The translations under genes and the position numbers were made by a program. From Gammaproteobacteria bacterium (GTDB taxonomy: Bacteria; Pseudomonadota; Gammaproteobacteria; Burkholderiales; Gallionellaceae): a DNA stretch of 57,144 bases. This document shows, in pieces, positions 35,830-51,803 of the stretch. Below the pieces are notes generated by a model. The model was not told the DNA's origin. It saw nothing but the letters and a program-made list of their open reading frames with translations, and searched no databases. Where the stretch lies: positions 1 through 57,144 of the forward strand of contig JAHJNJ010000027.1 of assembly GCA_018820925.1 (NCBI GenBank), read 5' to 3'. Numbering within the stretch: the first letter of the stretch is position 1; each line of letters begins with the position of its first letter.

Positions 35830-37587
35830 TCAGACGACTTCCTGTTGCAACTCGACCAGCTTGCGGTACAGCATGCCCGGCGAAACAGGTTTGTGCAGCA
35901 GCGGAATGCCGCTGGCCTGGGCTTCGCGCAAGCGTGTCGGCGCAGTATCGCCGGTGATCAGCAGGGCGGGGATGTCGCGGCCAATCAACTTGCGCAGGGC
36001 AGCGATGGCCTCGACGCCGGTGCGCTGTTCGCGCAAGCGATAATCGCTGACGATTACGTCGGGCACATTCAGTTGCACCAGCGCCAGCGCTTCCTCGATG
36101 GATTCCGCCGCCTCGCATTCGCAGCCCCAATCGCGCAACAGATGCAGCATGCCTTCGCGCACGATTTCGTCGTCGTCGATGAACAGCAGACGCGCATTCA
36201 GCAGCCGGGTCTTGCTGTGCAGCATGATGTTGGACTCCGGGGCATTGCGCGCCAGCGGCAAGGTCAGCCGGAATACGCTGCCGCGTCCCGGCTTGGAATT
36301 CAACGTCAATTCATATCCCATCGCGCGTGCCAATCCATCCGCAATCGCCAGCCCCAGCCCCAACCCTTTGCGGCGGTCGCGCTCCGGATTGCCCAGTTGG
36401 TGGAATTCCCGGAACACTTCTTTTTGTTCCTCGGGCGCTATGCCGATGCCGGTGTCCCAAATCTCCAGTGCGGCATGTTCGCCGTGCTGGCGGCAAGCAA
36501 CCAGTACGCCGCCCTGATCGGTGTAGCGTATTGCATTGGAAATCAGGTTGCGCAGGATCAGTTCCAGCAAAACCGGATCGGTGAGTACCGCCGTATGGGT
36601 TTCGCGCGAACGGTACACAATGTTCTTTGCGTCGGCCTGCAACGCGAGTTCATTTTCGATCTTGTTGAGCAACGGCTGCACGCGGAAGGGTTGGAGTTGT
36701 GGATCGATCACGCCCGCTTCGATGCGCGAGAAATCCAGCAGGGCATTAAGCAACTCGCTGGAGGCCTCCGATGCTGCACGTGCACTGGCCAGCAGTTCCT
36801 GCTGGTAAGGGGTCTGCTCGGTGCGCGAAAGCACTTCGAGAAACAATCCCTGCGCGTGGATGGGCTGGCGCAGGTCGTGGCTGGCGGCGGCCAGAAATTT
36901 GGATTTGGCGGTGTTGGCGTGTTCGGCTTCGCGTTGGGCGGCTTCGGCGATTTCTGTTTTGACCTGCAGCTTCTCCAGCAATGCGACATTTTCAAAACGC
37001 AGGTTGATTGAGGCGCGAATTTCCTTTGCGCTATTGCGCGCCATCAGCGTGACGCTTGTCAGGAATATGATACCCACGATGCCGAGCGAGTTGTATGCCG
37101 GGTCGCCCAGCGTCCAGACTTTGGTGGCCAGCAGGACGAGCATGGTCGTGACGAACGCCATGAATACCGGCAGTACAGGCGTCAGTCTGGACATGGAGCT
37201 GCCCACCATGCCGGCGATGGTCGAGATGACCAGTATGCTGCCGACCACGGTGCTGGTATCCAGCGTAACCCAGGCCAACGCGCCCCAGAGTGCGCCGTCT
37301 ATTGTGTTCAGCACAATCAAGGTCCACACCAGGCGGTGAGCCTGCGCGACGGGAATGTCCGACGCAAGGTAGTGCCGGGCATGGAGCATGGCGAACAGTT
37401 TGTACGACATCAAAGCCACGCCCCATACCTTGAGCGCGAGTGCATTGCTGTCGTTGCTCAAAGTCAGCACCAGCACAATGCTCAGGAATAAAGTCGGGAT
37501 CAGGGCGCTGGCCACATTGCCCAGCAACAGCCGCAACTGTCCCACCAGAACGCGATCTTCATCCAGACGCAACAGGTTTCCACGCAT
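35830..37587 (-). CDS. Hybrid sensor histidine kinase, tandem paralog 1
   Basis: A 585-residue kinase with about six hydrophobic segments (25-190), a short coiled coil, HisKA with His237 in AASHDLRQPIHA, HATPase with DTGIGIAPE and GLGLGLAIADG, and a receiver with FIDDDE, phospho-acceptor Asp515 in VSDYRL and Lys in LHKPV. All key residues are present. I chose ATG 37587 (MRGNLLRLDEDRVL) because paralog 2 starts with the same MxxNLLRLDEDRVL; the longer frame would run into the paralog 2 gene. It is the last gene of the minus-strand regulator-kinase run, 25 bases after paralog 2. Confidence 0.92.
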   Translation of the reverse strand: MRGNLLRLDEDRVLVGQLRLLLGNVASALIPTLFLSIVLVLTLSNDSNALALKVWGVALMSYKLFAMLHARHYLASDIPVAQAHRLVWTLIVLNTIDGALWGALAWVTLDTSTVVGSILVISTIAGMVGSSMSRLTPVLPVFMAFVTTMLVLLATKVWTLGDPAYNSLGIVGIIFLTSVTLMARNSAKEIRASINLRFENVALLEKLQVKTEIAEAAQREAEHANTAKSKFLAAASHDLRQPIHAQGLFLEVLSRTEQTPYQQELLASARAASEASSELLNALLDFSRIEAGVIDPQLQPFRVQPLLNKIENELALQADAKNIVYRSRETHTAVLTDPVLLELILRNLISNAIRYTDQGGVLVACRQHGEHAALEIWDTGIGIAPEEQKEVFREFHQLGNPERDRRKGLGLGLAIADGLARAMGYELTLNSKPGRGSVFRLTLPLARNAPESNIMLHSKTRLLNARLLFIDDDEIVREGMLHLLRDWGCECEAAESIEEALALVQLNVPDVIVSDYRLREQRTGVEAIAALRKLIGRDIPALLITGDTAPTRLREAQASGIPLLHKPVSPGMLYRKLVELQQEVV

Positions 37588-37612
37588 ATCGGCTCCGTTG
37601 GTAAATATAGTG

Positions 37613-39409
37613 TTATTCGGCCAGATCGGCGGAATGCGCCGGCTTGTCCTGATTGGCTTCCTGCATGACCTCAACCACCCTGCGATAGAGCTGGCCCGCA
37701 GACACCGGCTTGTGCATCAGCGGGATGCCGCTTGATTTGGCTTCGCGCAGCCGTTTCGGCGCGGTGTCGCCGGTAAGCAGGATGGCGGGCAGATTGTTTC
37801 CCAGCAGTTCTCGCAGCGCCGCGATGGCTTCCACGCCGGTGCGCTGTTCGCGCAGGCGGTAGTCGCTGATGACCAGGTCGGGAGGGTGTGCGCTTGCCAG
37901 TTCGAGCGCTTCTTCGATGGATTCTGCCGCTTCGCATTCGCAGCCCCAATCGCGCAACAGGTGCAACATGCCTTCGCGCACGATCGCGTCGTCGTCGACG
38001 ACCAGCAGTCGCGCATTCAGCAAGCGAGTCCGGCTCTGCTTCATGGCGACATGCAGGTCGGAAATGGCATTGTCGATTGGCATGGTCAGGCGAAATACGC
38101 TGCCGCGTTGCGGGGTGGATGCCAGTGTCAGGCGATGCCCCAGGGTGCGCGACAGGCCGTCTGCAATTGCCAGGCCCAGCCCCAGGCCTTTGTGCCGGTC
38201 GCGTTCCGGATTGCCGAGTTGGTGAAATTCCCGAAACACTTCCTGTTGTTGCGCGGTTTCTATCCCGACGCCGGTATCCCAGATTTCCAGAACCGCCTGA
38301 TCGCCGCGCCGCCGGCATGCGACCAGGATGCCACCCTGTTGGGTATAGCGCACCGCATTGGACACCAGATTGCGCAGGATCAATTCCAGCAGCACCGGAT
38401 CCGTGCGCACGGATATGTCGGTCTCGCGCGAGCGATATACGATGTCTTTTGCATTGGCTTGCGGCGCGTGTTCGTTTTCGATTTTGTTGAGCAAAGGCTG
38501 CAGGCGAAACGGCTGTATCTGCGGTTCGATCACGCCGGCCTCGATGCGCGAAAAATCGAGCAACGTGTTGAGCATTTCGCCCGAAGCTTCGGACGTGGCG
38601 CGCGCGCTGTTGAGAAGTTCGCGCTGGTAGTCGTTCAAGTCGGTGCGCGACAGCACTTCCAGAAACAGGCCCTGGGCATGGATGGGCTGGCGCAGATCGT
38701 GGCTGGCCGCGGCCAGGAATTTCGATTTCGCGGTGTTGGCGAGTTCCGCCTCGCGCTGTGCGGTTGCGGCGACTCCGGTTTCCACACGCAACTGATCCAC
38801 CAGTTCGACGTTCTCGAAACGCAGCTTGATGGCCGCGCGCGCCGCGCGGGCGCTGTTGAGGCCCTGGGAAAGCAGGGCGGCAAGATACAGGATCCCGGCT
38901 ATGCCAAGTGCGTTGTAGGCCGGGTCACCCAGCAACCACAGTTTCGCGACCACCACCGCCAGTTCCATGAAGACGAAAACGATGAACACCGGAAGCACAG
39001 GCGCCATCAGCGACATGGCGCTGCCCAAAATGCCGGCGACGACCGAGATCACCAGGATGCTGCCTGTCATGGTGGTTGTATCCAGTGTGGCCCAGGTCAG
39101 CGCACCCCAGAGCGCACCGTCCAGGCCGTTCAGCAGCATCAGAATCCAGACCAGCCGATGTGCCCGATGGTGGGGGATGCCGGACGCGAGATTGCGCCGG
39201 GAGAGAAAGTAGATATTCAGCTTGGACAGAATCACTGCCGCACACCACAGGCCCAAACCCATTGTATTGCTGTCGTTGGACAAGACGACCAGCATCAGGA
39301 GCGCCAGCAAAAAACCGGGAATGACCGAACTGCCCACGTTGCCCATCAGCAGGCGCAGTTGTTCAACCAGAACGCGGTCTTCGTCGAGTCGCAACAGGTT
39401 TGCTGGCAT
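37613..39409 (-). CDS. Hybrid sensor histidine kinase, tandem paralog 2
   Basis: A 598-residue kinase with the same layout as paralog 1: membrane sensor, HisKA with His237 in AASHDLRQPIHA, HATPase, and a receiver with VVDDDAIVREGMLHLL and ISDYRLRE. It aligns with paralog 1 along its whole length including the N-terminus (NLLRLDEDRVLVEQLRLL), so the two are the closest pair. AAGGAAG precedes ATG 39409. It ends in a short polar tail, DKPAHSADLAE, not present in the others. Confidence 0.92.
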   Translation of the reverse strand: MPANLLRLDEDRVLVEQLRLLMGNVGSSVIPGFLLALLMLVVLSNDSNTMGLGLWCAAVILSKLNIYFLSRRNLASGIPHHRAHRLVWILMLLNGLDGALWGALTWATLDTTTMTGSILVISVVAGILGSAMSLMAPVLPVFIVFVFMELAVVVAKLWLLGDPAYNALGIAGILYLAALLSQGLNSARAARAAIKLRFENVELVDQLRVETGVAATAQREAELANTAKSKFLAAASHDLRQPIHAQGLFLEVLSRTDLNDYQRELLNSARATSEASGEMLNTLLDFSRIEAGVIEPQIQPFRLQPLLNKIENEHAPQANAKDIVYRSRETDISVRTDPVLLELILRNLVSNAVRYTQQGGILVACRRRGDQAVLEIWDTGVGIETAQQQEVFREFHQLGNPERDRHKGLGLGLAIADGLSRTLGHRLTLASTPQRGSVFRLTMPIDNAISDLHVAMKQSRTRLLNARLLVVDDDAIVREGMLHLLRDWGCECEAAESIEEALELASAHPPDLVISDYRLREQRTGVEAIAALRELLGNNLPAILLTGDTAPKRLREAKSSGIPLMHKPVSAGQLYRRVVEVMQEANQDKPAHSADLAE

Positions 39410-39466
39410 ATCTTCCTTTTAGCGCATTTCGTAACTTGGCAACCGCCGGCAGTGGTGTGCGCGAAT

Positions 39467-41242
39467 TCAATTGTTGGACGGTGTTTCTACGGTTTCCTGC
39501 TGCAGTTCGACAAGTCTGCGATAGAGCTTGCCCGGGGAAACGGGCTTGTGCAACAACGGAATACCGCTGGCCTGCGCTTCGCGCAAGCGCTCGGGGGCGG
39601 TGTCGCCGGTGATCAGCAGGGCGGGCAGCGTTTCACCCAGCAATGTGCGCAGCGCGGCGATGGCCTCCACGCCGGTCCGCCGCTCGCGCAAACGGTAATC
39701 GCTGATGACCACGTCCGGTCTGTTCAAATGCGCCAGCGCAAGCGCCTCTTCGATGGATTCCGCCGCTGCGCATTCGCATCCCCAGTCACGCAGCAAATGC
39801 AGCATGCCTTCGCGCACGATCTCGTCATCGTCCACGACCAGCACACGCGCCTTCAGCAGGCGTGTCCTGCTTTGGTGCATGGGATTGGGCGCGGGCGGAA
39901 TAGCGGTTTCAATGGGCAATGTCAGACGGAACACGCTGCCGCGTTGCGGGACGGATGCCAGTGTCAGACTGTGCCTCAGCGTGCGCGCCAGACCCTCCGC
40001 AATGGCCAGCCCCAGCCCCAAGCCTTTGTTGCGATTGCGTTCCGGATTGCCCAGTTGGTGGAACTCGCGGAACACTTCCGTATGGTGTTCCGGCGCAATG
40101 CCGATGCCCGTATCCCAGACTTCCAGCACGGCCTTTGCGCCGCGTCGACGGCACGCCACCAGCACGCCGCCGTGTTCTGTGTAGCGAATGGCATTCGATA
40201 CCAGATTCCTGAGAATCCGTTCCAGCAGCATCGGGTCGGTATGCACCAGCGCCTGCGTTTCGCGCGAGCGATAAACGATGTCTTTTGCGTCGGCCTGCGG
40301 CGCGAGTTCCGTTTCAATTTTGTGGAGCAAGGGTTGCAAACGGAGAGATTGCAGTTGCGGCTTGATCACGCCGGCTTCAATGCGCGAAAAATCGAGCAGC
40401 GCATTGAGCAATTCGCTGGAAGCTTCCGAAGCGGCACGCGCACTGGCGAGCAGGTCCTTTTGATGCGTCGTCTGTTCGGTGCGCGAAAGCACCTCCAGAA
40501 ACAGCCCCTGCGCATGGATGGGCTGGCGCAAATCGTGGCTGGCCGCGGCGAGGAATTTGGATTTGGCCATGTTGGCATCGTCGGCCACCTGCTTCTGCTC
40601 GCGCAGGCCGTCGACCAGATCCAGATTCTCGAAGCGCAACACGATTGCTTCGTGTGACAATCGGTGTGCGGCCTGCAGCCACTGGTACAGAACCATAAGC
40701 ATGAAAATCAACGTACCCGCCATGATCAGGGAGGTAGTTGTACCTTGCTGCAGGAACGGTACAGCGGCTAGCAATAATGCCGGTGTAGAAAACGCCATGA
40801 GCGAGGCAGGCCAGTATGACGACACAAAAATAGAACCTGCCACAATCGAAATCAGTATGCTGAGCAGCAGCACCTGCTCGGCCACGGAATCGGGCGAATA
40901 AAACAGAATATACGCACTGCCCCAGACAAAGCCGTCCAGCAGCCCAACCAGCGTCAGTTGCCGAGCCCAGCGCACTGCCGACTTGTAAACGGGCGGATGG
41001 GCAAAATGGCGGCGCAGCATCAGGTAGCGCATTGCCGGCATCGTAATCGCGCACAATAACCAACCCAGTACTTTGACGTGGTCCGTTTGCCACCACATAC
41101 CGAGCGCTACCAGCAGCGCCAGCACTGGCATCGCGAACCTTGCCTCATACAGCACAAGCGCCATCTGGTGGATGGCCTCGACAGTTACGCGCTTTTCATC
41201 GGCAGGCTGGTTCTCGCCATGGTCTGTGAACGGTTTGATCAT
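39467..41242 (-). CDS. Hybrid sensor histidine kinase, tandem paralog 3
   Basis: A 591-residue kinase whose cytoplasmic half (from KSKFLAAASHDLRQPIHA, His236, to the receiver with VVDDDEIVREG and ISDYRLRE) is very close to paralogs 1 and 2. Its membrane sensor is different in sequence (EAIHQMALVLYEARFAMPVL at the start). This mosaic suggests sensor replacement or faster sensor divergence. The start is uncertain: ATG 41242 lacks a clear ribosome-binding site and an in-frame TTG at 41305 would add 21 residues. It is the first kinase after the response regulator gene, separated by 72-135 bases. Confidence 0.88.
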   Translation of the reverse strand: MIKPFTDHGENQPADEKRVTVEAIHQMALVLYEARFAMPVLALLVALGMWWQTDHVKVLGWLLCAITMPAMRYLMLRRHFAHPPVYKSAVRWARQLTLVGLLDGFVWGSAYILFYSPDSVAEQVLLLSILISIVAGSIFVSSYWPASLMAFSTPALLLAAVPFLQQGTTTSLIMAGTLIFMLMVLYQWLQAAHRLSHEAIVLRFENLDLVDGLREQKQVADDANMAKSKFLAAASHDLRQPIHAQGLFLEVLSRTEQTTHQKDLLASARAASEASSELLNALLDFSRIEAGVIKPQLQSLRLQPLLHKIETELAPQADAKDIVYRSRETQALVHTDPMLLERILRNLVSNAIRYTEHGGVLVACRRRGAKAVLEVWDTGIGIAPEHHTEVFREFHQLGNPERNRNKGLGLGLAIAEGLARTLRHSLTLASVPQRGSVFRLTLPIETAIPPAPNPMHQSRTRLLKARVLVVDDDEIVREGMLHLLRDWGCECAAAESIEEALALAHLNRPDVVISDYRLRERRTGVEAIAALRTLLGETLPALLITGDTAPERLREAQASGIPLLHKPVSPGKLYRRLVELQQETVETPSNN

Positions 41243-41377
41243 GGCGCTGGATATACCAAGGTTATTCGTGCGGGGCAAGCTAACATCAGCACGATATTCC
41301 CGCAATCCCCGGTCCTGATTCGATTAACTCAAATTCCGCAATTGCGGGCCGGTTGGCCATCGTCCGACATTTTGCTG

Positions 41378-41995
41378 TTAACCCACCAGCCCGCGACGGC
41401 GTGCCGCAAAGGCAGCCTCCGAGCGGCTCGATACTTCGAGAAAAGCCAGTATCGCCTGCACATGCCCGCGCACGGTATTTTCCGAAAGCGACAGGCGCCG
41501 GGCGATGAGTTTGTTCGACATGCCCTGACATACCAGGTCCAGCACTTCGCATTGGCGCGGCGTCAGGTGTTGGGGAATATCCTGCGTTTCCTCGCTTCCT
41601 TCCGGTTGTTTTCCGGGTTCGGCATAAACGCCGCGCAAAACACGGTTGAGCAATGCAACGATCCGGTCTGCGGTGTCCGCTTTTGAAATGAAGCATACCG
41701 CCCCGCGCGCCAGCGCATTGCGCACAGTTTCCGGCCCGTCCTGCGATGACAGCACGACCACGGGAACCAGCGGCCATTTGCGTTTCAGGAACGCAATGCC
41801 GTCCAGGCCGTTCAGGCCGGGCAGGTTGATATCCAGCAGGATGACGTCAATCTGTTGCGGCGCATCCTGCGTCGCTTCGTTGAGCGATCCCGCCTCGAAT
41901 ATTTCCGTATCCGTCATGCGCGCGGCCAGCACCATGCTCAGCCCCGATCTGAACATTGCATGGTCATCAATGAGCAAAATTTTCGTAGTAGCCAT
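41378..41995 (-). CDS. NarL/LuxR-type response regulator
   Basis: A 205-residue two-domain regulator. The receiver has LLIDDHAMFRSGL, phospho-acceptor Asp55 in LLDINLPG and Lys in FISKAD. The C-terminal LuxR helix-turn-helix is LTPRQCEVLDLVCQGMSNKLIARRL followed by SENTVRGHV (split here only for length). It is the only free-standing response regulator near four hybrid kinases and the first gene of their minus-strand operon, so it is the probable output of all of them. The divergent intergenic region holds two inverted-repeat sites that this kind of dimeric regulator could bind. Confidence 0.94.
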   Translation of the reverse strand: MATTKILLIDDHAMFRSGLSMVLAARMTDTEIFEAGSLNEATQDAPQQIDVILLDINLPGLNGLDGIAFLKRKWPLVPVVVLSSQDGPETVRNALARGAVCFISKADTADRIVALLNRVLRGVYAEPGKQPEGSEETQDIPQHLTPRQCEVLDLVCQGMSNKLIARRLSLSENTVRGHVQAILAFLEVSSRSEAAFAARRRGLVG

Positions 41996-42044
41996 GTTGC
42001 CGATTTAACCTTGCCCGACACTTGCTGTGCAAGCGTTTTCAAGT

Positions 42045-42069
42045 AACCAGTCCAAATGGACTATACGAA
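42045..42069 (+). promoter_or_regulatory. Inverted-repeat site 1 upstream of the propeller lipoprotein
   Basis: AACCAGTCCAAATGGACTA and on to TACGAA contains the perfect inverted repeat AGTCC-AAAT-GGACT at 42049-42062. The same 25-base layout recurs at 48645-48669. It lies 33 bases upstream of site 2, about three helical turns. The binding protein is unknown; the adjacent LuxR-type regulator is the obvious candidate. Confidence 0.7.
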
Positions 42070-42081
42070 TAACGCAGATTC

Positions 42082-42125
42082 AGTCCAAACAGACTATATG
42101 AAATAAATTTTCAGTCGCCTACATT
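42082..42125 (+). promoter_or_regulatory. Inverted-repeat site 2 and probable -10 box
   Basis: AGTCCAAACAGACTATATGA starts at 42082 (arms AGTC/GACT). The last base of GACT is 42095 and a TACATT box starts at 42120, 25 bases later. The repeat centre would sit near -43 relative to the start site, where class II activators overlap the -35 region. No good -35 box is visible, which fits an activator-dependent promoter for the gene at 42184. Confidence 0.65.
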
Positions 42126-42183
42126 GTGCCTACTGAAGAACGCTGCTTCCCGCAGCGAAATAATTCGAGAAGAGAGACACATC

Positions 42184-44721
42184 ATGCATACCAACTACAG
42201 CCTTGCGAACCCATCTCCGGCAACTGTCATGCGCAACCTTGCACGGCCCATGCTGTGCCGGGTGCATCGCTACAGCGCAGTTGTCCTGACAGCATTGTTT
42301 GTCTCGCTGCTGGTGGCGTGTGGCGGAGGCAACAGCAGCTCAAGCGCGAGTGCGACTATCGGCACCCAGGGCGGTACGCTCGTTGGTCCGGACGGTGTGA
42401 GCGTGGCGATACCGGCTGGCGCGCTGGAACAGCCGACCGTGATCAGCATTACGCGCACGTCGGCGGGCGCACCGGATGTGCTGGAAGCCTACCCGGTGGC
42501 AGGCAATGTCTACGAGTTCACCCCGCATGATGTGAGTTTCAACAGTCTCGTCACGGTCAGCGCGCCGGTGCCCAACGGCGCCACGGGCGCGGAATTGTTC
42601 ATGGCCAGCCCCGGCGGAGACTGGAAGCAGCTGGATACCCAGGTTGCCAACGGTGTGGCCACGTGGGAGCGCAATACGTTCTCATACGCCTACGTCGCTT
42701 ATCCCTGCCTCGTCCCGACGGCCATGCTCAATGATCCCTATTGGTGCGCCAGGGAAAGAAGTTATGCCCGCATTGTTGCGACACCGCCACAGGCGCTGAC
42801 ACAAACCTCCGTCCCGAACATCATGACAGGTGATGCGGGTTCCTATCTCCTGACCCAGGCGGCCAGTTTGCAGGTTACTTCGACGTTCGGTGTGCCGGGC
42901 AACTGCCGCAATGTATCGGTCACATTGAAACACAGCCTGTACGATCCGGTCAGCTACACGTGGAGTCCCCTGCAACCGTTCAAATCACCGCTAAGTCCAG
43001 CACTTACTTTGAGTGCAAACGGCCATTTGCTCGAAGGCACCGCGCCCTTCACGGTGGCGTCGACCGAGCTGGGCAATGGCAAGCACCGGCTTTCCCTGAT
43101 TGTCGATTTGGAATGTCCCCGGGCCGCGCACGCACCCAACAGTTCGACCGTCACCGGCTGGGATACCGGCAACTATCAGGCGCGTTGGGTGGGTGACGGC
43201 ATGGTGGTGGACGTCGACGTTGTGCCGCCCGCTGTTTCTTATACCGTGGGCGGCAGCGTAAACGGTCTCACAGGTTCGGGGCTGGTGTTGCAGAACAATG
43301 GCACCAACTTCACGCCGGTTGCCGCCGATGGCAGCTTCACTTTTTCCAACTCGGTTGGTGCTGGCGCTCCTTACGACGTTAGCGTACTCACGCAGCCTGC
43401 GGGTCAAACCTGCACGGTAAACAACGGCAGCGGCACGGCCAATGCCGACATCAACAATGTGTCGGTAACGTGCATCACCACCTATTCCATTGGCGGCGCG
43501 GTCAGCGGTCTGGTCGGCTCGGGGCTGGTGTTGCAGAACAATGGCGCGGACGACCTGACCTTTACCAACAGCGGTGCTTTCAGCTTTGTCACCCGTTTGG
43601 CCGCCGGCGCGGCCTACGCCGTCACTGTCAAGACGCAACCTTCGGGCTCCAACTGTATCGTGCAAAGTGGCGGCACAGGTACAGCCAATGCGGACGTCAC
43701 CGATGTTGTAGTTGTTTGCACATCGACGGGTGCGCTGGCTCTGGTGGCCAACAGCGGCGTTACCAACGGCACCAACGGTCTGTCGGTCTACCGGGTCAGC
43801 CCGACCACGGGCGTCATGTCATTCCTCGCCAATGTCAATGCCGGCAATACACCCTATGCCATCGCGCTCTCGCCCAACGGACTGTATGCATATGTCACGA
43901 ATCAGGTCGGCGGCACCGTTTCTTCCTACAGCATTGACAATGTAACCGGTGTCGTCAGTCCTATCCCATTGAGTTCTCCCTCATCCAATAACGCTTCCGG
44001 CATTGCCATGGATCACCTCGGGCGTTATATCTGGGTGGCCAATTACGGCTTCAATACCGTGTCGGCATTTTCGATTGGCGCCGGTGGCGTGTTGACCGCA
44101 GCGGGTGCGCCGAAGGCGACGAGTTCTTTCCCGTTCGCCATTACGGCACACCCGACGGCGGACTTTGTTTACGTCGCACATGAGATGTCGAATGCGATTA
44201 CTGTTTATAGTGTCAACACGGCCAGCGGAGCCCTCACGCTGCTGCAAACGCTCAGCAATGCAATCACTGTGCCGCGCGGTTTCACCATCGACCCGAGTGG
44301 ACGCTTCTTGTACGTAACGAGCGCCAACGGCGGCATCAGCGCTTTTGCCATCAATGCCACTACCGGCCAACTGACCACGATCGGCTCTGTCAGCAGTGGC
44401 TCTGCCACGAACTCGGTCGCTGTCAACCCGAATGGACTGTACCTGTACGTAGTCAACCGCGCCGCCGCTCCGGACAATGTCCTGGTCTTCAGCATCAACC
44501 AGACCTCGGGGGCGCTCACCTTGCTGCCCACGACTTACAGCGCGGGCAACAACCCGAGCAGCGTAGCCATCGATGCAACAGGCGCCTACCTATATGTGAC
44601 AAACCTCACCAGCAATGACGTGTCGGCTTTCAGCATTGGCGGCAGTGGAGCGATCCTGACCTCTTTGGGTGCAACTGTTGCCACCGGCACAGCGCCGGAA
44701 GGCATCGCCGTGACACCTTGA
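42184..44721 (+). CDS. Lipoprotein with ZU5-like domain, two beta modules and a seven-bladed beta-propeller
   Basis: An 845-residue lipoprotein with a long n-region and lipobox LLVACGGG near residue 45. Then come a ZU5-like segment (GGTLVGPDGVSVAIPAGAL), two tandem modules of about 85 residues (YTVGGSVNGLTGSGLVLQNN and YSIGGAVSGLVGSGLVLQNN), and from about 515 a lactonase-type propeller with repeats such as NGLYAYVTNQ and SGRFLYVTSAN. It should be exported and surface-attached; the propeller may bind or hydrolyse a ligand, but no activity can be assigned. ATG 42184 lies 13 bases after GAGAGA. A probable activator-dependent promoter lies 60-100 bases upstream. Confidence 0.85.
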   Translation: MHTNYSLANPSPATVMRNLARPMLCRVHRYSAVVLTALFVSLLVACGGGNSSSSASATIGTQGGTLVGPDGVSVAIPAGALEQPTVISITRTSAGAPDVLEAYPVAGNVYEFTPHDVSFNSLVTVSAPVPNGATGAELFMASPGGDWKQLDTQVANGVATWERNTFSYAYVAYPCLVPTAMLNDPYWCARERSYARIVATPPQALTQTSVPNIMTGDAGSYLLTQAASLQVTSTFGVPGNCRNVSVTLKHSLYDPVSYTWSPLQPFKSPLSPALTLSANGHLLEGTAPFTVASTELGNGKHRLSLIVDLECPRAAHAPNSSTVTGWDTGNYQARWVGDGMVVDVDVVPPAVSYTVGGSVNGLTGSGLVLQNNGTNFTPVAADGSFTFSNSVGAGAPYDVSVLTQPAGQTCTVNNGSGTANADINNVSVTCITTYSIGGAVSGLVGSGLVLQNNGADDLTFTNSGAFSFVTRLAAGAAYAVTVKTQPSGSNCIVQSGGTGTANADVTDVVVVCTSTGALALVANSGVTNGTNGLSVYRVSPTTGVMSFLANVNAGNTPYAIALSPNGLYAYVTNQVGGTVSSYSIDNVTGVVSPIPLSSPSSNNASGIAMDHLGRYIWVANYGFNTVSAFSIGAGGVLTAAGAPKATSSFPFAITAHPTADFVYVAHEMSNAITVYSVNTASGALTLLQTLSNAITVPRGFTIDPSGRFLYVTSANGGISAFAINATTGQLTTIGSVSSGSATNSVAVNPNGLYLYVVNRAAAPDNVLVFSINQTSGALTLLPTTYSAGNNPSSVAIDATGAYLYVTNLTSNDVSAFSIGGSGAILTSLGATVATGTAPEGIAVTP

Positions 44722-44944
44722 CGAAACGGGGGCAGGAAATGAAAACCGTCGCATGCTTGTGCCAAACCTGCCGGTCCGTGTCCGGTTTATCGAAATCACC
44801 GGATTCCGGCCGTTGCCGGGATGACGAATGATGACTTGATCGGACTATCCCGTGTGCTGCAAACAAACCGGAAGCAAGTCAGGCGGTCGCTATCAAATGA
44901 AAATGACCAGACTCGAATAGCTGTTGATTTAAGGAGTATCCAGA
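44722..44944. other. Intergenic stretch before the small lipoprotein
   Basis: These 223 bases contain no gene I can support. GGACTAT at 44842-44848 resembles the right half of the inverted-repeat site, but the left half and the TACATT spacing are missing. AAGGAG at 44932-44937 serves the next gene. Confidence 0.5.
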
Positions 44945-45097
44945 ATGGATTTCACCCACAAAAATAAAATCAGGTTGAGCGCGCTATTCCTGCTTGCGAT
45001 ATTTCTCACAGCATGCGGTGGAGGCGGCGGCACAACATCTGGATCGACGACTTGTACTTGGGATAGCTCAACTTGGGATAACTGCAAATTGGAGTGA
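44945..45097 (+). CDS. 50-residue lipoprotein
   Basis: A complete small gene: AAGGAG, 7-base spacing, ATG 44945. The product has a basic n-region (MDFTHKNKIR), a hydrophobic core, the lipobox FLTAC with Cys24 and five glycines. The mature part is only 27 residues and ends TCTWDSSTWDNCKLE, with two tryptophan-aspartate pairs and two cysteines. The lipobox style matches its neighbours. I do not recognise the family. It may be a genuine small surface lipoprotein or the truncated head of a larger one. Confidence 0.65.
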   Translation: MDFTHKNKIRLSALFLLAIFLTACGGGGGTTSGSTTCTWDSSTWDNCKLE

Positions 45098-45168
45098 AAC
45101 CTGAAGAATATGAACCGCGATCAAATTGTTTGCACTGACAACCCGCTTTCGCTCCGAGGAGAAATGCC

Positions 45169-46497
45169 ATGAACCAGAATAACAACACAGACCAGCAAGT
45201 GAGCAAAACTTCAAAACTGTTAAAGCGCTTCAAGCCCGGCCGCACCCGGCTCATCAGCGGGTTGATGATGTTTACTGCGGGCGCGTTTGCGTTTGCCGCC
45301 GCACCCACTCTCTTCACCAGCGGCACCACCATCAATTCGAGTGTAATGAACAGCAATTTCAGCGAAATCGATACGCGCATCAATATGCTGGAGACGGCGG
45401 TCAACGGCGGCAACGTCGTGCTGGTGCCCTCGACGGCGACCACGGGGAATATCATGAAGGGAACGGCCCCGTTCCTGCACAACTACGGTCAGAGCAACAC
45501 ATTCCTCGGGCAGGACGCGGGCAACTTCACGATGAACGGCACCAACAACACTGCCAGCGGAAGGTTGGCATTTGCCAGCAACACCTCCGGCACAGACAAC
45601 ACCGCCAACGGCCTGAATGCGCTTCGGAGCAACACTACTGGCAATAGTAACGTCGCCAATGGCGTGAGCGCGCTCTTCGGCAACAGCACCGGCTCCAACA
45701 ACACAGCCAGCGGCGCGTTCGCGCTCGAGAGTGGCGCCGGCAACAGCGGCAACAACAACACAGCCAGCGGCGCGTTTGCACTCCGCAGCAACACCACCGG
45801 TAGCAACAACACCGCCAGTGGCGTGGGCGCGCTCTCCAACAACACGACCGGCAATAGCAACATCGCCATTGGACTTAATGCCGGTCTTGGCATATCGACC
45901 GGCGTCAGCAACATCGTCATCGGCAACGCCGGCACTGCCGAGTCAAACACCATCCGCATCGGCAGCACGGACCAAACTCGTGCTTTCATCGCAGGCATCC
46001 GCGGTGTCACTACCGGCGTCGCCAACGCGATTGCCGTGATGGTTGACAGCAACGGCCAGCTCGGCACCGTGAGTTCCTCACAGCGCGTCAAGGACGACAT
46101 CGCCGACATGGGCGATGCGAGCAGCCTGCTGATGAAACTGCGGCCGGTGACCTTCCATTACAAGGTCGACCAAAATCCCAAGGGTCGCAGCCTGCAATAC
46201 GGGCTGATTGCCGAAGAAGTGGAGAAAGTCGCCCCGGGGCTGGTGGCGCGCTCGGCCAGCGGTGAAATCGAAACCGTGTTCTACCAGCACCTCACCCCGA
46301 TGCTGCTCAACGAATACCAGAAGCAGCAGCGTCTGATCGATAGCCAGGCGGCGGCATTGGCCAATCAGAACCAGCGTGTGGCGGAGCTGGAAAAACAGGC
46401 CCTGGAAATCGTAGCGCTCCGGCAGGAACTTAACCGCATGGCCGCCTTGTTGGCACGCGTGGGGCAGTCGGAAAGGGTCGCAAGCAATAGCCATTAA
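45169..46497 (+). CDS. Secreted repeat protein with C-terminal peptidase S74 chaperone domain
   Basis: A 442-residue protein. After a long basic n-region and a hydrophobic stretch (LISGLMMFTAGAFAFAAA, about 28-46) come head-like repeats of about 20 residues with the pattern NTASGxxAL and SNTTGS (about 115-255), similar to YadA-type adhesin heads. From Ser302 a peptidase-S74 domain follows: SSSQRVKDDI, LRPVTFHYK and YGLIAEEVEKVAPGLV, then a coiled-coil tail (about 385-435). S74 domains trimerise fibre proteins and cut themselves off near the Ser. So this is probably a trimeric surface fibre. GAGGAGAAA precedes ATG 45169. The next gene starts 17 bases after. Confidence 0.87.
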   Translation: MNQNNNTDQQVSKTSKLLKRFKPGRTRLISGLMMFTAGAFAFAAAPTLFTSGTTINSSVMNSNFSEIDTRINMLETAVNGGNVVLVPSTATTGNIMKGTAPFLHNYGQSNTFLGQDAGNFTMNGTNNTASGRLAFASNTSGTDNTANGLNALRSNTTGNSNVANGVSALFGNSTGSNNTASGAFALESGAGNSGNNNTASGAFALRSNTTGSNNTASGVGALSNNTTGNSNIAIGLNAGLGISTGVSNIVIGNAGTAESNTIRIGSTDQTRAFIAGIRGVTTGVANAIAVMVDSNGQLGTVSSSQRVKDDIADMGDASSLLMKLRPVTFHYKVDQNPKGRSLQYGLIAEEVEKVAPGLVARSASGEIETVFYQHLTPMLLNEYQKQQRLIDSQAAALANQNQRVAELEKQALEIVALRQELNRMAALLARVGQSERVASNSH

Positions 46498-46514
46498 ATC
46501 TGAGGGCGGACGAA

Positions 46515-47387
46515 ATGAATTTCAAACACACAACAAAATTTCAAGGTTCGGCAATTCGCGTTGCCTTGGTGCTATCCCTGTTGTCCGCCTGCGGCGGAGG
46601 TGGAGGCGGGGGTGCTGCACCGCCTGCGCCACCCACCTACACGATCAGTGGCACGGTTTCAGGTCTGGGTGCCGGCAAGAACGTTGTGCTCCAGAATAAT
46701 AGCGGTAACGACCTCGCTGTTTCTGCTGATGGCGCATTCACCTTCACGGTGCCCATTGCTAATAGTGGCGCCTACGTCGTCTCGGCACTCACCCAGCCCG
46801 TCCTTCAGACCTGCACAATCGCGAATGCCAGCGGTACGGTCAGCGGAGCAAACGTCACCAATGTCTCCATCACATGCGTGGTCAGCATCGCGCTGCCCAA
46901 AACCGGGCAGACATTGTGTTACGACGCCGTGGGTACCATCGCTTGCGCCGGTACCGGCCAGGACGGCGATCTGCAAACCGGCGTGACTGAACCTGGCCCG
47001 CGTTTCATCGTTGGCACCGCCGCTGAGGTGGACTGCGTTACCGACAGTCTTACCGGCCTCATGTGGGTAGGCGCGCCGAGCCTCACCGGTAGCGACTGGG
47101 CCAGTGCGCTCACTGCTGCCAACGGCCTTAACCTCTGCGGCTATACCGACTGGCGGCTTCCCAACCTTGTGGAACTGGGCAGTCTCCTCAACTACAGTGT
47201 GGCGGACAACGCCGCCGTGATGAATGCCGCGGGTTTCAGCAACATCAACAGTTGGTACTGGACGTCGACCTCTATGGCTGGTTATCCGCTTTGGGTGGGG
47301 GTCCTCAATATTGCCAATGGCCAGATGACGACAAGCGCCGCCAAGACCTATACCTATCCCCGTACCTTGCCGGTGCGCGGGCCGTAG
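46515..47387 (+). CDS. DUF1566 (Lcl-type) lipoprotein with one beta module
   Basis: A 290-residue lipoprotein. The lipobox LLSAC near residue 26 is followed by seven glycines. A module of about 85 residues (YTISGTVSGLGAGKNVVLQNN ... SITC, split for length) is the same kind as the two in the 845-residue protein. The C-terminal part is a DUF1566 domain: GLMWVG, LNLCGYTDWRLPNLVELGSL, WYWTSTSMAG. In some DUF1566/Lcl proteins this domain is linked to adhesion, including collagen-like Lcl of Legionella. It starts 17 bases after the S74 gene, so the two are co-transcribed. Confidence 0.85.
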   Translation: MNFKHTTKFQGSAIRVALVLSLLSACGGGGGGGAAPPAPPTYTISGTVSGLGAGKNVVLQNNSGNDLAVSADGAFTFTVPIANSGAYVVSALTQPVLQTCTIANASGTVSGANVTNVSITCVVSIALPKTGQTLCYDAVGTIACAGTGQDGDLQTGVTEPGPRFIVGTAAEVDCVTDSLTGLMWVGAPSLTGSDWASALTAANGLNLCGYTDWRLPNLVELGSLLNYSVADNAAVMNAAGFSNINSWYWTSTSMAGYPLWVGVLNIANGQMTTSAAKTYTYPRTLPVRGP

Positions 47388-47521
47388 CATATTGGGATAC
47401 TCGACCTTGCGCGCGGCGGAGAATGACATGGCACGATACGAACATCTGCCCATCTGCAAAAGGCGATGGGTGTTGCCATCGCTTCCTGCCAACAACCCGA
47501 ATCTTTTGCGGAGAACCAACC

Positions 47522-48097
47522 ATGCGTAGCCTTTATCTGTTTTTTGTACTGGTCACCGGCCTGCTGCCATTCGCCACGACCCAGGGCGCCCCCGCCGACC
47601 TGCCCCAGACCGGGCAGACAATCTGTTACGACGCTGCCGGTGCCGTCGTTACCTGTGCCGGCACCGGGCAGGACGGCGAACTCACGGCGGGTATTGCCTG
47701 GCCGAACCCGCGCTTCGTCGTCGGCCCTACGGCGGACTGCATTACCGACACCCTGACCGGTCTCGTGTGGGTGCGTGCGCCGGTCTTCGCCAGCTACACC
47801 TGGTACGAGGCGCTTACTTATGCCAAGAATCTCAATCTCTGCGGCTATACCGACTGGCGGTTGCCCAACATCGTCGAGATCAAAAGTGTGGTGAACAGCG
47901 CAGCCGCTAACAAGGCGACCTTTCTGAATACCCAGGGTTTCAATGTGTTTGCGAACCCCTACTGGTCGTCGACGAACCAAGCTGGTTATCCGGCCAATGC
48001 GTGGTACCTCAACTTGGGCGATGGCAACGCGACCACCGGTACTAAGGACGGCAGTAGTGGCGTAGGCCTTGCTTGGCCAGTGCGCGGCGGACAGTAG
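47522..48097 (+). CDS. DUF1566 secreted protein
   Basis: A 191-residue protein with a signal peptide (MRSLYLFFVLVTGLLPFATT, cleaved near QGA) and no lipobox. The body matches the second half of the previous protein: TGQTICYDAAGAVVTCAGTG, then GLVWVRAP, LNLCGYTDWRLPNIVEI and YWSSTNQAG. It is a free secreted paralog of the DUF1566 lipoprotein. ATG 47522 is chosen since it opens the signal peptide; a longer frame from 47252 overlaps the upstream gene and is spurious. Confidence 0.85.
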   Translation: MRSLYLFFVLVTGLLPFATTQGAPADLPQTGQTICYDAAGAVVTCAGTGQDGELTAGIAWPNPRFVVGPTADCITDTLTGLVWVRAPVFASYTWYEALTYAKNLNLCGYTDWRLPNIVEIKSVVNSAAANKATFLNTQGFNVFANPYWSSTNQAGYPANAWYLNLGDGNATTGTKDGSSGVGLAWPVRGGQ

Positions 48098-48115
48098 AGT
48101 GCGTCTAAAGGGGGT

Positions 48116-48604
48116 ATGACTGGCAAACGTCGATTATTCGGAATTGTCTTGCTGTTTGTCCTTGCGACAATCGCGGCTTGTGGTTGAGGTGGCGGCGGTA
48201 TCGCACCTGCAGCAAACAACACTGTTACCCACCCGCGCTTCGCTTATGTGGCGAATAGCGGTGACAACGCAATATCCATTTATTCGGTCGACGCCGCCAG
48301 CGGGCAGTTGCGGCATAGCGGCTATGTGTTGGCGGGTGCTGCACCCCAGTCCGTCACCGTTGACCCGTTCGGCAAGTTTGCCTATGTGGCGAACAATGGA
48401 GCGTCCAGCGTCTCGGGCTATAGCATCGACGCCGGTTCGCTTGCCGTCGATCCCGCAGGCAAGTTCGCCTACGTGGCGAATATCAATTCAGGGAATGTCT
48501 CCGCCTACATTATCGACGCCGTGACCGGCACGCTGACCACTGTCGGTATCGAGCTGGCGGGAACTGCTCCCGTCTCGATCGCCACCACCGGCACTGTCCA
48601 GTAG
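48116..48604 (+). pseudogene. Beta-propeller lipoprotein interrupted by TGA after the lipobox
   Basis: GGGGG precedes ATG 48116. The frame reads a signal peptide with lipobox TIAACG (Cys22), hits TGA at 48185-48187 as codon 24, and then continues open to 48604 through GGGIAPA and propeller repeats (RFAYVANSGDNAISIY, KFAYVANNGASSVSGY, KFAYVANINSGNVSAY). The codons around the stop are GGT TGA GGT GGC, so one change from GGA, restoring the glycine tract seen in the neighbours, would repair it. Even repaired it has only about three blades, fewer than a closed propeller needs. Internal GTG 48248 would give an unexported fragment. Confidence 0.8.
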
Positions 48605-48644
48605 TCACGCTTGTGAAGCGTTTGTCATCGCATGAATGCGCTGC

Positions 48645-48692
48645 AACCAGTCTGCATGGACTATATGAAAAGTTTCTTTCGCCAGTTACATT
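48645..48692 (+). promoter_or_regulatory. Inverted-repeat activator site and -10 box, second copy
   Basis: AACCAGTCTGCATGGACTAT and on to ATGAA repeats the site at 42045, with arms AGTC/GACT at 48649-48662. TACATT lies at 48687-48692, again exactly 25 bases after GACT. It serves the lipoprotein at 48809, giving a leader of about 110 bases. The identical geometry at two promoters is the main evidence that the element is real. Confidence 0.7.
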
Positions 48693-48808
48693 CGGTTGGA
48701 GATTTCCGATGTCACCTGCGCAACGAAATGCGGAGGACATGCAGCAAGGGGATTTCGCAGAGCGTTGCGGGGCATGGAATTTGGAACCGGAATAAATCAG
48801 GGGGAGTG

Positions 48809-50200
48809 ATGAATACTGACGATAGCGTGATGGCAAGGTTGGGGCTGATAGCCACTTTATTGATTGCGGCATTTCTAAACGGTTGCGGCGGAGGCGGTGG
48901 TGCAGCCCAGGACAGCTCCCCACCCAGTCCCAGTCTGACCGCCATAGGCGTCATCGACAACAACGAGATCGGCAGCGGAGCGACCATTGGTGCAGGCGGC
49001 GGCACGCTCAGCACGGTCGACAACAAACTCACGCTTACCATACCGGCCGGTGCATTGGCCGCGAATACCCAGATCAATATCAAACGCATCACCAATAAGG
49101 CCCATGGCGGCATTGGTGGAGGCTTCCGGCTTGAGCCGGATGGCCTGACGTTCAATGTGCCCGTCACGCTGACGTTCGCTTATACCGACAATAACCTGGC
49201 CTTCAATGATCCCGAGGTCCTCGGCGCGGCCTTTCAAACGAGCGACGGATACTGGCAGTGGCTGAGCGCACCCGTGCTGGATATTGCTAGCCACACGCTG
49301 ACCGTCACTACCACACACTTCACAGACTTTTCTCTGGTGAAAGGATTCCAGATCCAGCCGGCTTCAAAAACCATCAGGACAAATGAAAGCGCAGCGCTGA
49401 ATATCGTGTACTGCTACCAGCCTGCGCTCGGCGACAATGATCTGCAACCCCTGGGTTATGCATGCGACACCAGCGATGACCAACTGGCCCCGTTGCTCCC
49501 CACCGCAGTCGTCAGCGACTGGTCGGTGAACGGCATCATCGGCGGCAACAGTTCAATTGGCACCGTAAGCGGCAGTAGTTCGGCGGCCACCTACACTGCA
49601 CCCGGCACCGTACCCAACTCGAACCCGGTGGCAGTCAGTGCGCAAGTCGCATACGGCTCAGTCGCTGTGACAGTCGTCGCAAATATCACGGTAGTCGACA
49701 CCATGTCTTATACCGGGTCGGTGCTGTACAGCAGCGACATGGCGGGAGGCGGCATTGTCGTCACTCATGCGCTGGCCGATGTGACCTGGACGCAGTTTGA
49801 AGACCTGGGCGACGTGCGCAGTTATGTGCCCACGGGCAGCATCACGGCGGATTCCGTATCCATCGCGGGGTGCGACCCGTTGAATAACGTGACGGTGCCG
49901 ATCAAAGCCACCGTGCCCCACGGTCCGGGCCCGACCATGGTGGTGTATACCGCCAGCAATTCCGCCTACGCGAAGCGCCACATGTTTGCACTGGCTGCGG
50001 ATGAGACCCCGCTGACATTCACGTGTGGCGGCAGTCCGTACACGGTTCCTGCATCGGGAATATTTGCCATCGTTGTAGGTTCATGCAGCACGCCCGATGC
50101 CTATCCCGCTTTCACGGACGAAACACATCTGGCCGGGACTTACAACCAGCAATGCTACAGCATGGGGGTGGATGCGCTATGGGATTTCAGGATGCCGTAA
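48809..50200 (+). CDS. Lipoprotein with ZU5-like domain
   Basis: A 463-residue lipoprotein. The lipobox FLNGC near residue 26 is followed by five glycines. A ZU5-like segment follows (GGGTLSTVDNKLTLTIPAGAL, split as GGGTLST and LTIPAGALAANTQINIK), comparable to the first domain of the 845-residue protein. The middle (about 195-310) looks Ig-like with SDWSVNGIIGGNSSIGTVSG, and the C-terminal 130 residues are unassigned but contain six cysteines. ATG 48809 follows GGGGGAG. The next lipoprotein gene starts 55 bases downstream. Confidence 0.82.
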   Translation: MNTDDSVMARLGLIATLLIAAFLNGCGGGGGAAQDSSPPSPSLTAIGVIDNNEIGSGATIGAGGGTLSTVDNKLTLTIPAGALAANTQINIKRITNKAHGGIGGGFRLEPDGLTFNVPVTLTFAYTDNNLAFNDPEVLGAAFQTSDGYWQWLSAPVLDIASHTLTVTTTHFTDFSLVKGFQIQPASKTIRTNESAALNIVYCYQPALGDNDLQPLGYACDTSDDQLAPLLPTAVVSDWSVNGIIGGNSSIGTVSGSSSAATYTAPGTVPNSNPVAVSAQVAYGSVAVTVVANITVVDTMSYTGSVLYSSDMAGGGIVVTHALADVTWTQFEDLGDVRSYVPTGSITADSVSIAGCDPLNNVTVPIKATVPHGPGPTMVVYTASNSAYAKRHMFALAADETPLTFTCGGSPYTVPASGIFAIVVGSCSTPDAYPAFTDETHLAGTYNQQCYSMGVDALWDFRMP

Positions 50201-50255: not shown

Positions 50256-51803
50256 ATGGTCACACAAACAGTTGCAAAGATGCTGAGAATTACCGTGCTG
50301 TTGCTCGGTCTTGCAGGCTGCGGAGGCGGTGGAGGTTCTGGTGGCGGAAGCCCGGCGCCAAACGTGGTGGAGTCGATAGCGGTTTCACCTGCTTATATCA
50401 GTACCGATACCAACACCAGCCAGCAACTGACCGCCACCGCGACGTATGCCGATGCTTCGACGGCCAATGTGACATCAAGCGTCACATGGGCGTCGGCAAA
50501 TTCTGCCGTGGTTTCCGTGAGCAATACCGGTTTGGCGGCAGCCGGCGCAGTGCAGAGCAGCGTGGAAATTTCCGCAAGCATGGGCGCGGTAAGCGGCAAG
50601 AGCCATATAGCGGTGACCAGTCCAGTCGCCACCCTGACGGCGGTCATCGTCCCCGTGAACCAGACGATCTATACAGGGAAATCCTGGCTCCCAACGACCT
50701 GGGCCAATGCCAATTTCTCCAACGGCACGGGGCAGTCGCCATATACCTTGGTGAAGTGGACTGTTTCGGGTTGTACGCCTGCCAACGCGGCATCCGTGAA
50801 TGCAGACGGTACGATTGCCGCCAACACACCCGGTTCGTGCACGATCACGGCATCATCGGGGGCGCTGACATCTGCGGCGAAGACGCTGACGATCAGTGAT
50901 CCGACACTGCAATCCATCGTCATTATTCCGGCCGCGCCGTCTGTCGCCGCAGGTGGGAATATGCAGATGACCGCGATGGGAACCTATATCGACGGTTCGC
51001 AGAAGAACATAACAGCATTGCTGCAATGGAGTACCAGCAACGCTGCTGTTGTGGGCGTGGACAATACAACAAGCAAGGGTCGAATCACTGGCGTGTCAGC
51101 CGGTTCTGTCACGATCACGGCAACACCCATCCTGCCCGGCGGGCACCCGCCGGTCGCCGCGGCAACGACGACAGTGACCGTTCCGGGAGCTCCACCTGCT
51201 CAGGCCTCCGTAAACTTGTCGCCGATCGAAGACAATACCGTGATGTGGAGCTCTTTGGTCGGGTCACGGAAAACCACGGTTTACAGTTACGAGGCAATGT
51301 TTACCAATCCCGCTGTTGCGGTAGGCTGTGCATGGTATTACTCGCTCGTTCTGCACCAGATGGATGCCTCGTGTTCCGAAGGCAAGCTTAAATTCAATTT
51401 GGCCACACTGGCCGGCAAAACCATTGTGAGTGCGACATTGCGTTTGCAGGCCAGTGCGGCCAGTACACTCGGTATTGTGCCGCGCACGTGGATTGTGCGG
51501 GCTCTCGCGACACCCTGGTCGGGTACGACGATCACCTGGGATAACTCCAGGGGCTTGCAGTACTACACATACTCGCAATCTGCCCATAATCCACCCACCT
51601 TTATCGGGCAGATCATCGACATCGACCAGACCGATACAGTGCGCAACTGGGTGGCGGGTGCTTACCAGAACAACGGACTTGAACTGGTGTTGGGCGATTA
51701 TTCGATTCCAAACATGTACGACATCTCACTGGATCAGTTTGAATTCCATAGCAGCGAAGATGCCGGCGGACGCGGTCCCAAGTTGATGGTCACTTATCAG
51801 TAG
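50256..51803 (+). CDS. Lipoprotein with Ig-like (BIG2) domains and a DNRLRE-like domain
   Basis: A 515-residue lipoprotein. Lipobox GLAGC with Cys22 is followed by a Gly/Ser tract. Bacterial Ig-like domains follow: one at about 35-125 (VESIAVSPAYISTDTNTSQQ, VTWASANSAVVSV), a middle one, and one at about 220-305 (LQSIVIIPAAPSVAAGG, LQWSTSNAAVVGV). The C-terminal 200 residues resemble DNRLRE domains: KLKFNLATLAGKTIVSATLR, then TTITWDNSRG and NGLELVLGDY. Such proteins are surface stalks carrying a binding domain. GGGGGAG precedes ATG 50256. A terminator lies 18 bases after the stop. Confidence 0.87.
   Translation: MVTQTVAKMLRITVLLLGLAGCGGGGGSGGGSPAPNVVESIAVSPAYISTDTNTSQQLTATATYADASTANVTSSVTWASANSAVVSVSNTGLAAAGAVQSSVEISASMGAVSGKSHIAVTSPVATLTAVIVPVNQTIYTGKSWLPTTWANANFSNGTGQSPYTLVKWTVSGCTPANAASVNADGTIAANTPGSCTITASSGALTSAAKTLTISDPTLQSIVIIPAAPSVAAGGNMQMTAMGTYIDGSQKNITALLQWSTSNAAVVGVDNTTSKGRITGVSAGSVTITATPILPGGHPPVAAATTTVTVPGAPPAQASVNLSPIEDNTVMWSSLVGSRKTTVYSYEAMFTNPAVAVGCAWYYSLVLHQMDASCSEGKLKFNLATLAGKTIVSATLRLQASAASTLGIVPRTWIVRALATPWSGTTITWDNSRGLQYYTYSQSAHNPPTFIGQIIDIDQTDTVRNWVAGAYQNNGLELVLGDYSIPNMYDISLDQFEFHSSEDAGGRGPKLMVTYQ

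Follow-up and report, generated by a model that had tools for sequence, protein, structure and literature searches.

A LuxR-type response regulator and its probable class II operators in a lipoprotein gene cluster of Gallionellaceae

The window analyzed here is a 57,144-nucleotide stretch of DNA from a bacterium of the family Gallionellaceae (assembly GCA_018820925.1, contig JAHJNJ010000027.1). It carries a cluster of predicted lipoprotein genes and, divergent from one of them, a gene for a LuxR-type response regulator (41378-41995). We are confident in proposing that this regulator binds a palindrome, AGTC-N6-GACT, as a class II activator of the local lipoprotein cluster, with probable autoregulation and probable control by hybrid histidine kinases. 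A previous reading of the window, made from the sequence only, had noticed the inverted repeat before two lipoprotein genes (42184 and 48809) and had named the divergent regulator as the best candidate for its binder. What ties the site to this regulator? Comparison with related genomes supports the assignment through the joint distribution of regulator and site, a palindrome before the regulator's own start and covariation between the recognition helix and the operator. Below, G labels denote the genomes sampled (G000 is the genome of the window), L labels the loci examined and C labels contigs.

The 3.44-Mb genome contains three exact copies of AGTC-N6-GACTATA, all of them within the lipoprotein cluster. 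The sequence-only reading had located all of these sites correctly (Table 1). It had also reported that TACATT follows the last base of GACT by 25 bases in both promoters, and this spacing holds (42095 to 42120-42125; 48662 to 48687-48692). However, the copy so spaced in the 42184 promoter is the one at 42082 that had been labeled a looser repeat, whereas the AACCAGTC copy (42045-42069) is present but sits 33 bp further upstream. Within the window, three exact matches were observed and none was obtained in 300 Markov-1 resamples. A weaker test that allowed up to three mismatches gave three matches against a mean of 0.73 expected, and 6 of 100 shuffles reached three. Loose patterns are not enriched in the genome: with up to one mismatch, AGTC-N6-GACTATA gave 14 matches (3 exact and 11 others) compared with 26 for the reversed-pattern control, and AGTCC-N4-GGACT with one mismatch gave 50 per strand compared with 134. 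Information resides only in the exact matches and their grouping.

Relatives retain the site together with its spacing. A search of 150 family genomes for the composite AGTC-N6-GACTAT-N22-TACATT, with at most one mismatch allowed, gave 20 matches in 12 genomes, compared with 3 matches for the reversed control. Fourteen matches are exact and fall in seven genomes (G000, G042, G072, G075, G087, G095 and G135). The remaining six carry one mismatch; those of G072 and G105 lie at the regulator locus, and those of G013, G056, G066 and G076 look like chance. When any gap from 7 to 37 (31 gaps) was accepted in 34 genomes of the genus, all 13 exact matches, from 6 genomes, had a gap of 22, and the control had no match. 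Among 399 genomes of the order, a gap of 22 was found only at the two sites of the window's own genome; three other genomes had one match each, with gaps of 13, 27 and 35, and the control had 7. The scan of relatives that the sequence-only reading had suggested thus finds the composite conserved, and at one spacing only. Since site and spacing are both preserved in relatives, a real gene switch is likely, and the lipoprotein-promoter module looks like a conserved and fairly ordinary one. A wider contig scan with the 21-base pattern returned at least 117 stretches, mostly from unrelated taxa, as chance predicts for a pattern of this length; among the matches listed, a regulator homolog accompanies two loci only (L023 and L113), both from Gallionellaceae. 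Some of the 21-base matches look good with no regulator homolog in the stretch, such as L095 (Nitrosomonadales).

The anatomy of the promoters is consistent with class II activation. Nineteen promoters align without gaps (14 from the exact composite pattern, 2 from one-mismatch matches and, from a separate search, 2 with CGTC and 1 with GGTC). Mean pairwise identity is 0.93 in the operator arms, 0.92 in ATATGAA and 0.95 in TACATT, compared with 0.32 upstream, 0.38 in the spacer and 0.30 downstream. Because most of these promoters were picked out by their arms, the AT that follows GACT and TACATT, the identity of these parts is partly due to selection; the independent part of the conservation is the TATGAA-type element, the fixed spacing and the unlike flanks. 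If TACATT occupies -12 to -7, TATGAA is predicted to fill exactly positions -35 to -30, the spacer is 17 bp long and the center of the operator would be at -43.5. The operator thus abuts the -35 element at a fixed distance from the -10 element, which is class II as far as geometry goes, and the earlier estimate of a center near -43 agrees with the prediction. The same reading had seen no -35 box; the predicted -35 region instead holds a conserved, non-consensus element rather than being empty.

Two other accounts of this conservation were weighed. In the first, an alternative sigma factor reads ATATGAA-N17-TACATT and the palindrome is an added modulator. ATATGAA is conserved as strongly as the operator arms and is unlike TTGACA, as this account would have it, but ATAYGAA also follows upstream tandem operator copies that lack TACATT at the usual distance. 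Two operators located only before regulator genes (L202:10643 and L201:2954) have no ATATGAA beside them, which is compatible with either reading. We regard the sigma factor account as unlikely. In the second, the shared sequence is the trace of a recent duplication of a promoter and its lipoprotein gene and has no present function. Some targets are indeed paralogous, and the tandem operator copies resemble local duplicates. However, the two promoters of the window are identical in ATATGAA (7/7) and TACATT (6/6) and diverge in the spacer (6/17), upstream (11/40) and downstream (5/40), and the operator-TACATT spacing is identical across species, which leaves duplication scarcely credible.

The distribution of the composite follows that of the regulator. 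Orthologs of the regulator (57% identity or more) were found in 16 of the 150 family genomes, and 17 of 158 have a match at E 1e-45. Seven of the 16 ortholog-bearing genomes contain exact composites and none of the other 134 does; 3 of those 134 hold one-mismatch composites that are likely due to chance. All 14 exact composites lie on the regulator's contig. The hypergeometric chance of this overlap, calculated by hand and ignoring relatedness, is about 4e-8. A symmetric palindrome, NGTC-N6-GACN', also precedes the regulator's own start by no more than 160 bp in 18 of 26 homologs; in 15 of these it is 48-55 bp away from the start codon. Another 20 regulator homologs, of 25-40% identity, all lack it. 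From this comparison of homologs, L263 (45% identity) was left out; the start positions of L261 and L254 carry some uncertainty, and the start used for L202_8146 is one codon late (ATG at 8143). By eye, CTTGC follows in 16 and GTTAA in 13 of 18 regulator upstream regions that were inspected, which we read as the predicted promoter of the regulator itself, with the operator near -60. In the window, the operator at 42049 lies 53 bp from the regulator's start codon, or at about -59.5 on its predicted promoter.

The link extends to single letters of the protein and the DNA. The variable residue x of the recognition helix (TVRxHVQ), which aligns with the second V of TVKVHVK in NarL, goes with the first base of the operator in the 18 palindrome-bearing homologs: Arg (TVRRHVQ) is found with GGTC (4/4), Ser (TVRSHVQ) with CGTC (1/1), and Gly, Asn, Val or Ile with AGTC (13/13). 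As base 1 follows the recognition-helix residue, the site is tied to the regulator without an experiment. One genome, G042, has three paralogs and three operator letters. Its Gly/AGTC and Ser/CGTC regulators are adjacent, forming two regulator-kinase pairs within 13 kb in one lipoprotein cluster (C3:38000-57900, L202, 938-13067), and its Arg/GGTC regulator (L207) is on another contig. Beside the Ser-type regulator, two lipoprotein promoters read CGTCCGAATGGACGATATGAA-N17-TACATT, and the Gly-type regulator goes with AGTC sites. These proteins may form a natural specificity series in which residue x chooses base 1 of the half-site and the rest of the operator and promoter stays constant, so that the adjacent paralogs of G042, each with its own promoters, would be insulated from each other within 13 kb. 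We put this proposal forward tentatively, at slightly less than an even chance of being right.

Several observations weigh against the assignment of the sites to the regulator as an activator of lipoprotein genes. A single origin of the Arg type is compatible with the tree, and the covariation may therefore rest on two changes. The Arg/G split has a chance of 1 in C(18,4)=3060 (by hand) if the rows are independent, a figure that is not relied on because of this possible single origin and because the L199 and L200 regulators are identical. The covariation is persuasive in kind and small in number, perhaps two changes. Nine of the 16 ortholog-bearing genomes have no exact composite, and 8 of the 26 homologs have no symmetric palindrome within 160 bp, including one Gly-type and two Arg-type regulators. 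L199 and L200 keep the operator and lack TACATT at the expected place. On the side of the targets, it counts in favor that 15 of the 18 promoters with a downstream open reading frame lead into lipobox proteins, in which the cysteine is followed by glycines (the 19th promoter, L201:5707, runs off its contig), but this is a raw count from a permissive lipobox pattern applied to the longest open reading frame. The three exceptions lead into another regulator (L198 and L203) or a small secreted protein (L202:1567), and the start codon chosen in L203 lies upstream of the predicted transcription start. Moreover, other predicted lipoprotein genes in the window, such as that at 46515, have no site of their own.

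How might the regulator act at these sites? A dimer of the regulator, probably phosphorylated, would bind AGTCC-N4-GGACT. At the lipoprotein promoters, the operator near -43.5 abuts TATGAA, where class II activation would occur. The second operator lies between the two divergent genes, 33 bp or about three helical turns upstream and near -59.5 of the regulator-kinase promoter, and would probably serve autoregulation; L196 (twice) and L197 show tandem operators with the same 33-bp offset. Phosphorylation of the regulator is probably set by the hybrid histidine kinases whose genes follow its own. The regulon looks local and would consist of a cluster of large predicted lipoproteins. The regulator could conversely bind and repress, or only regulate itself, with the lipoprotein genes activated by something else, given that the sign of regulation cannot be read from sequence alone and that the most widespread operator copy is the one before the regulator's own start. 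We consider this quite unlikely: in the aligned promoters the operator lies directly against the -35 element, and both promoter hexamers match the general consensus poorly, as is typical of activator-dependent promoters.

The regulator belongs to the NarL/FixJ type by domain content, with Pfam Response_reg (69.6 bits) and GerE (59 bits) matches that both exceed the cut-off, and its sequence contains LLDIN and SKAD stretches. Among solved structures, NarL (1a04, E 2.4e-26) is the closest to it in sequence. NarL sites consist of two 7-base halves around 2 bases (7-2-7), and the present operator can be written in the same form; the half-site and the kinases differ, and here a single local cluster is concerned. 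In class II activation by LuxR, the palindromic lux box abuts the -35 region with its center near -42.5, an arrangement that the present operator resembles. In contrast to LuxR, the regulator has a receiver domain rather than an acyl-homoserine-lactone domain, and its palindrome is shorter. The nearest described case found is CrbR (ErdR) of Pseudomonas fluorescens, a LuxR-type response regulator that acts together with a hybrid kinase. Its ACTU motif is an inverted repeat that spans -52 to -36, directly adjoins an RpoD promoter on the upstream side and is experimentally needed for activation (PMC5715377). The architecture is alike, with the operator predicted at -50 to -37 here. However, the ACTU matches listed for CrbR are of the type TACGACTAAAGTCTAAA (GAC-N4-GTC), unlike AGTC-N6-GACT, and the CrbR targets are acetate-utilization genes rather than lipoprotein genes (PMC5715377). 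The regulator scores 114.2 bits against the ErdR model NF041830, whose cut-off is 390, and by this score falls outside the ErdR/CrbR group.

Palindromes of very similar sequence occur at exosortase/PEP-CTERM loci, whose LuxR-family EpsA regulators (TIGR03020) also have a very similar recognition helix. EpsA differs in having its own locus and promoters and the box TAGTCCGNNCGGACTA, with exact tandem copies 24 bp apart (two loci) instead of 33. Among seven EpsA regions, taken from seven of the nine genomes with an EpsA match (G065 and G148, with no match above the cut-off, were left out), four contain exact AGTCC-N4-GGACT boxes (L157, L248, L252 and L253; 0.007-0.023 expected in each) and three contain none (L249, L250 and L251). 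In three of the four box-bearing regions, a similar PEP-CTERM gene follows the boxes at a distance of 363-421 bp. The candidate boxes are L157:1245, 4655, 4679 and 17406 (G000 C31), L248:11270, 11294 and 14264, L252:468 and L253:3643, and TAGTCCGNNCGGACTA is possibly the operator of the EpsA family. The boxes L157:1245 (minus) and L248:14264 (plus), before a second shared gene, have TACATT or TATATT 20 bases on. Two more exact AGTCC-N4-GGACT palindromes of G000, at C41:33421 and C25:18889, lie outside both the lipoprotein and the EpsA clusters; no open reading frame of 100 amino acids starts 20-650 bp from C41:33421 on the plus side.

This similarity raises the question of whether the operators of the window are EpsA boxes, which would place the lipoproteins in the regulon of a polysaccharide-locus regulator on another contig. 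The window's own genome encodes an EpsA on C31 that exceeds the TIGR03020 cut-off (198.7 versus 170 bits), near-identical palindromes AGTCCGAACGGACT stand at its exosortase/PEP-CTERM locus, its helix TVKNHVQ is close to the TVRGHVQ of the regulator, and the minus side of L157:1245 has TACATT, though at 20 rather than 25 bases. However, an EpsA match (E 1e-20) is found in only G000 and G075 of the seven exact-composite genomes, and the G075 region (L249) has no such box. Of the five composite genomes with no EpsA match, three are 82-89% complete, and G042 and G072 are listed as 99% complete. Conversely, seven further genomes with an EpsA match (five above the cut-off) all lack the composite, and among the EpsA-locus boxes inspected, none is followed by ATATGAA and by TACATT at 25 bases. 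Because EpsA was not found in five of the seven composite genomes, it is unlikely as the conserved binder, and we rejected it for the composite promoters on phyletic mismatch and different promoter layout. Cross-binding of EpsA in the window's own genome is possible, given how alike the half-sites are, but control of the lipoproteins by the EpsA regulator is very unlikely.

The surroundings of the sites are summarized in Table 1. The kinase encoded directly after the regulator is its likely cognate kinase, and a relative was found within the same stretch in 15 of 16 regulator loci examined. In all, three consecutive hybrid histidine kinases follow one response regulator (35830-41305); the NahK/ErcS model is the closest to them, with scores below its cut-off. 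The lipoprotein gene at 50256 may be co-transcribed with target 2, and the target lipoproteins would be located at the cell surface. A lipoprotein-like beta-propeller frame at 48118-48608 has an in-frame stop right after the lipobox and looks broken or appears to use an internal start.

Table 1. Coordinates of the regulator, kinases, predicted promoter elements, operators and target genes in the window
Feature	Position	Strand	Details
NarL/FixJ-type response regulator, proposed binder	41378..41995	-	receiver and LuxR/GerE helix-turn-helix; recognition helix TVRGHVQ
Predicted regulator promoter	42003..42032	-	TTGCAC (42027-42032), 18 bp, TTAAAT (42003-42008)
Hybrid histidine kinase	39467..41305	-	HisKA, HATPase_c, receiver; same strand, directly after regulator
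Second hybrid histidine kinase	37613..39409	-	best match NahK/ErcS model, below cut-off (351 vs 400 bits)
Third hybrid histidine kinase	35830..37674	-	best match NahK/ErcS model, below cut-off (342 vs 400 bits)
Operator copy AGTCCAAATGGACTATACGAA	42049-42069	+	coordinates as in the earlier reading
Second operator, AGTCC-N4-GGACT	42049..42062	+	33 bp upstream of 42082 operator
Operator copy AGTCCAAACAGACTATATGAA	42082-42102	+	coordinates as in the earlier reading
Promoter-proximal operator of 42184 lipoprotein gene, AGTC-N6-GACT	42082..42095	+	conserved in relatives; center about -43.5 from predicted start
TATGAA, -35-position element	42097..42102	+	17 bp before TACATT; alignment of 19 promoters
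TACATT, predicted -10 element	42120..42125	+	predicted start near 42132
Target 1, predicted lipoprotein (LVAC-GGG)	42184..44721	+	ZU5 and lactonase-type beta-propeller matches
Operator copy AGTCTGCATGGACTATATGAA	48649-48669	+	coordinates as in the earlier reading
Operator of 48809 lipoprotein gene	48649..48662	+	GACT ends at 48662
TATGAA, -35-position element	48664..48669	+	alignment of 19 promoters
TACATT, predicted -10 element	48687..48692	+	predicted start near 48699
Target 2, predicted lipoprotein (LNGC-GGGGG)	48809..50200	+	weak ZU5 match
Predicted lipoprotein (LAGC-GGGGG by eye)	50256..51803	+	matches to Big_2 and DNRLRE; 55 bp downstream of target 2

Among the papers listed from the open-licence literature, judged by titles and abstract openings, none concerned this regulator system, and no paper there combined EpsA with PEP-CTERM, LuxR and exosortase. 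For a two-component system of Gallionellaceae that is apparently unstudied, the present analysis thus proposes a probable operator, the layout of the promoters it controls and the kind of targets, namely large lipobox proteins rich in glycine. The link between the regulator protein and the letters of its DNA is unusually readable. If the residue-base rule is true, these regulators would offer a simple natural case in which to test the reading of DNA by LuxR-type helices and the avoidance of crosstalk between duplicated regulators.

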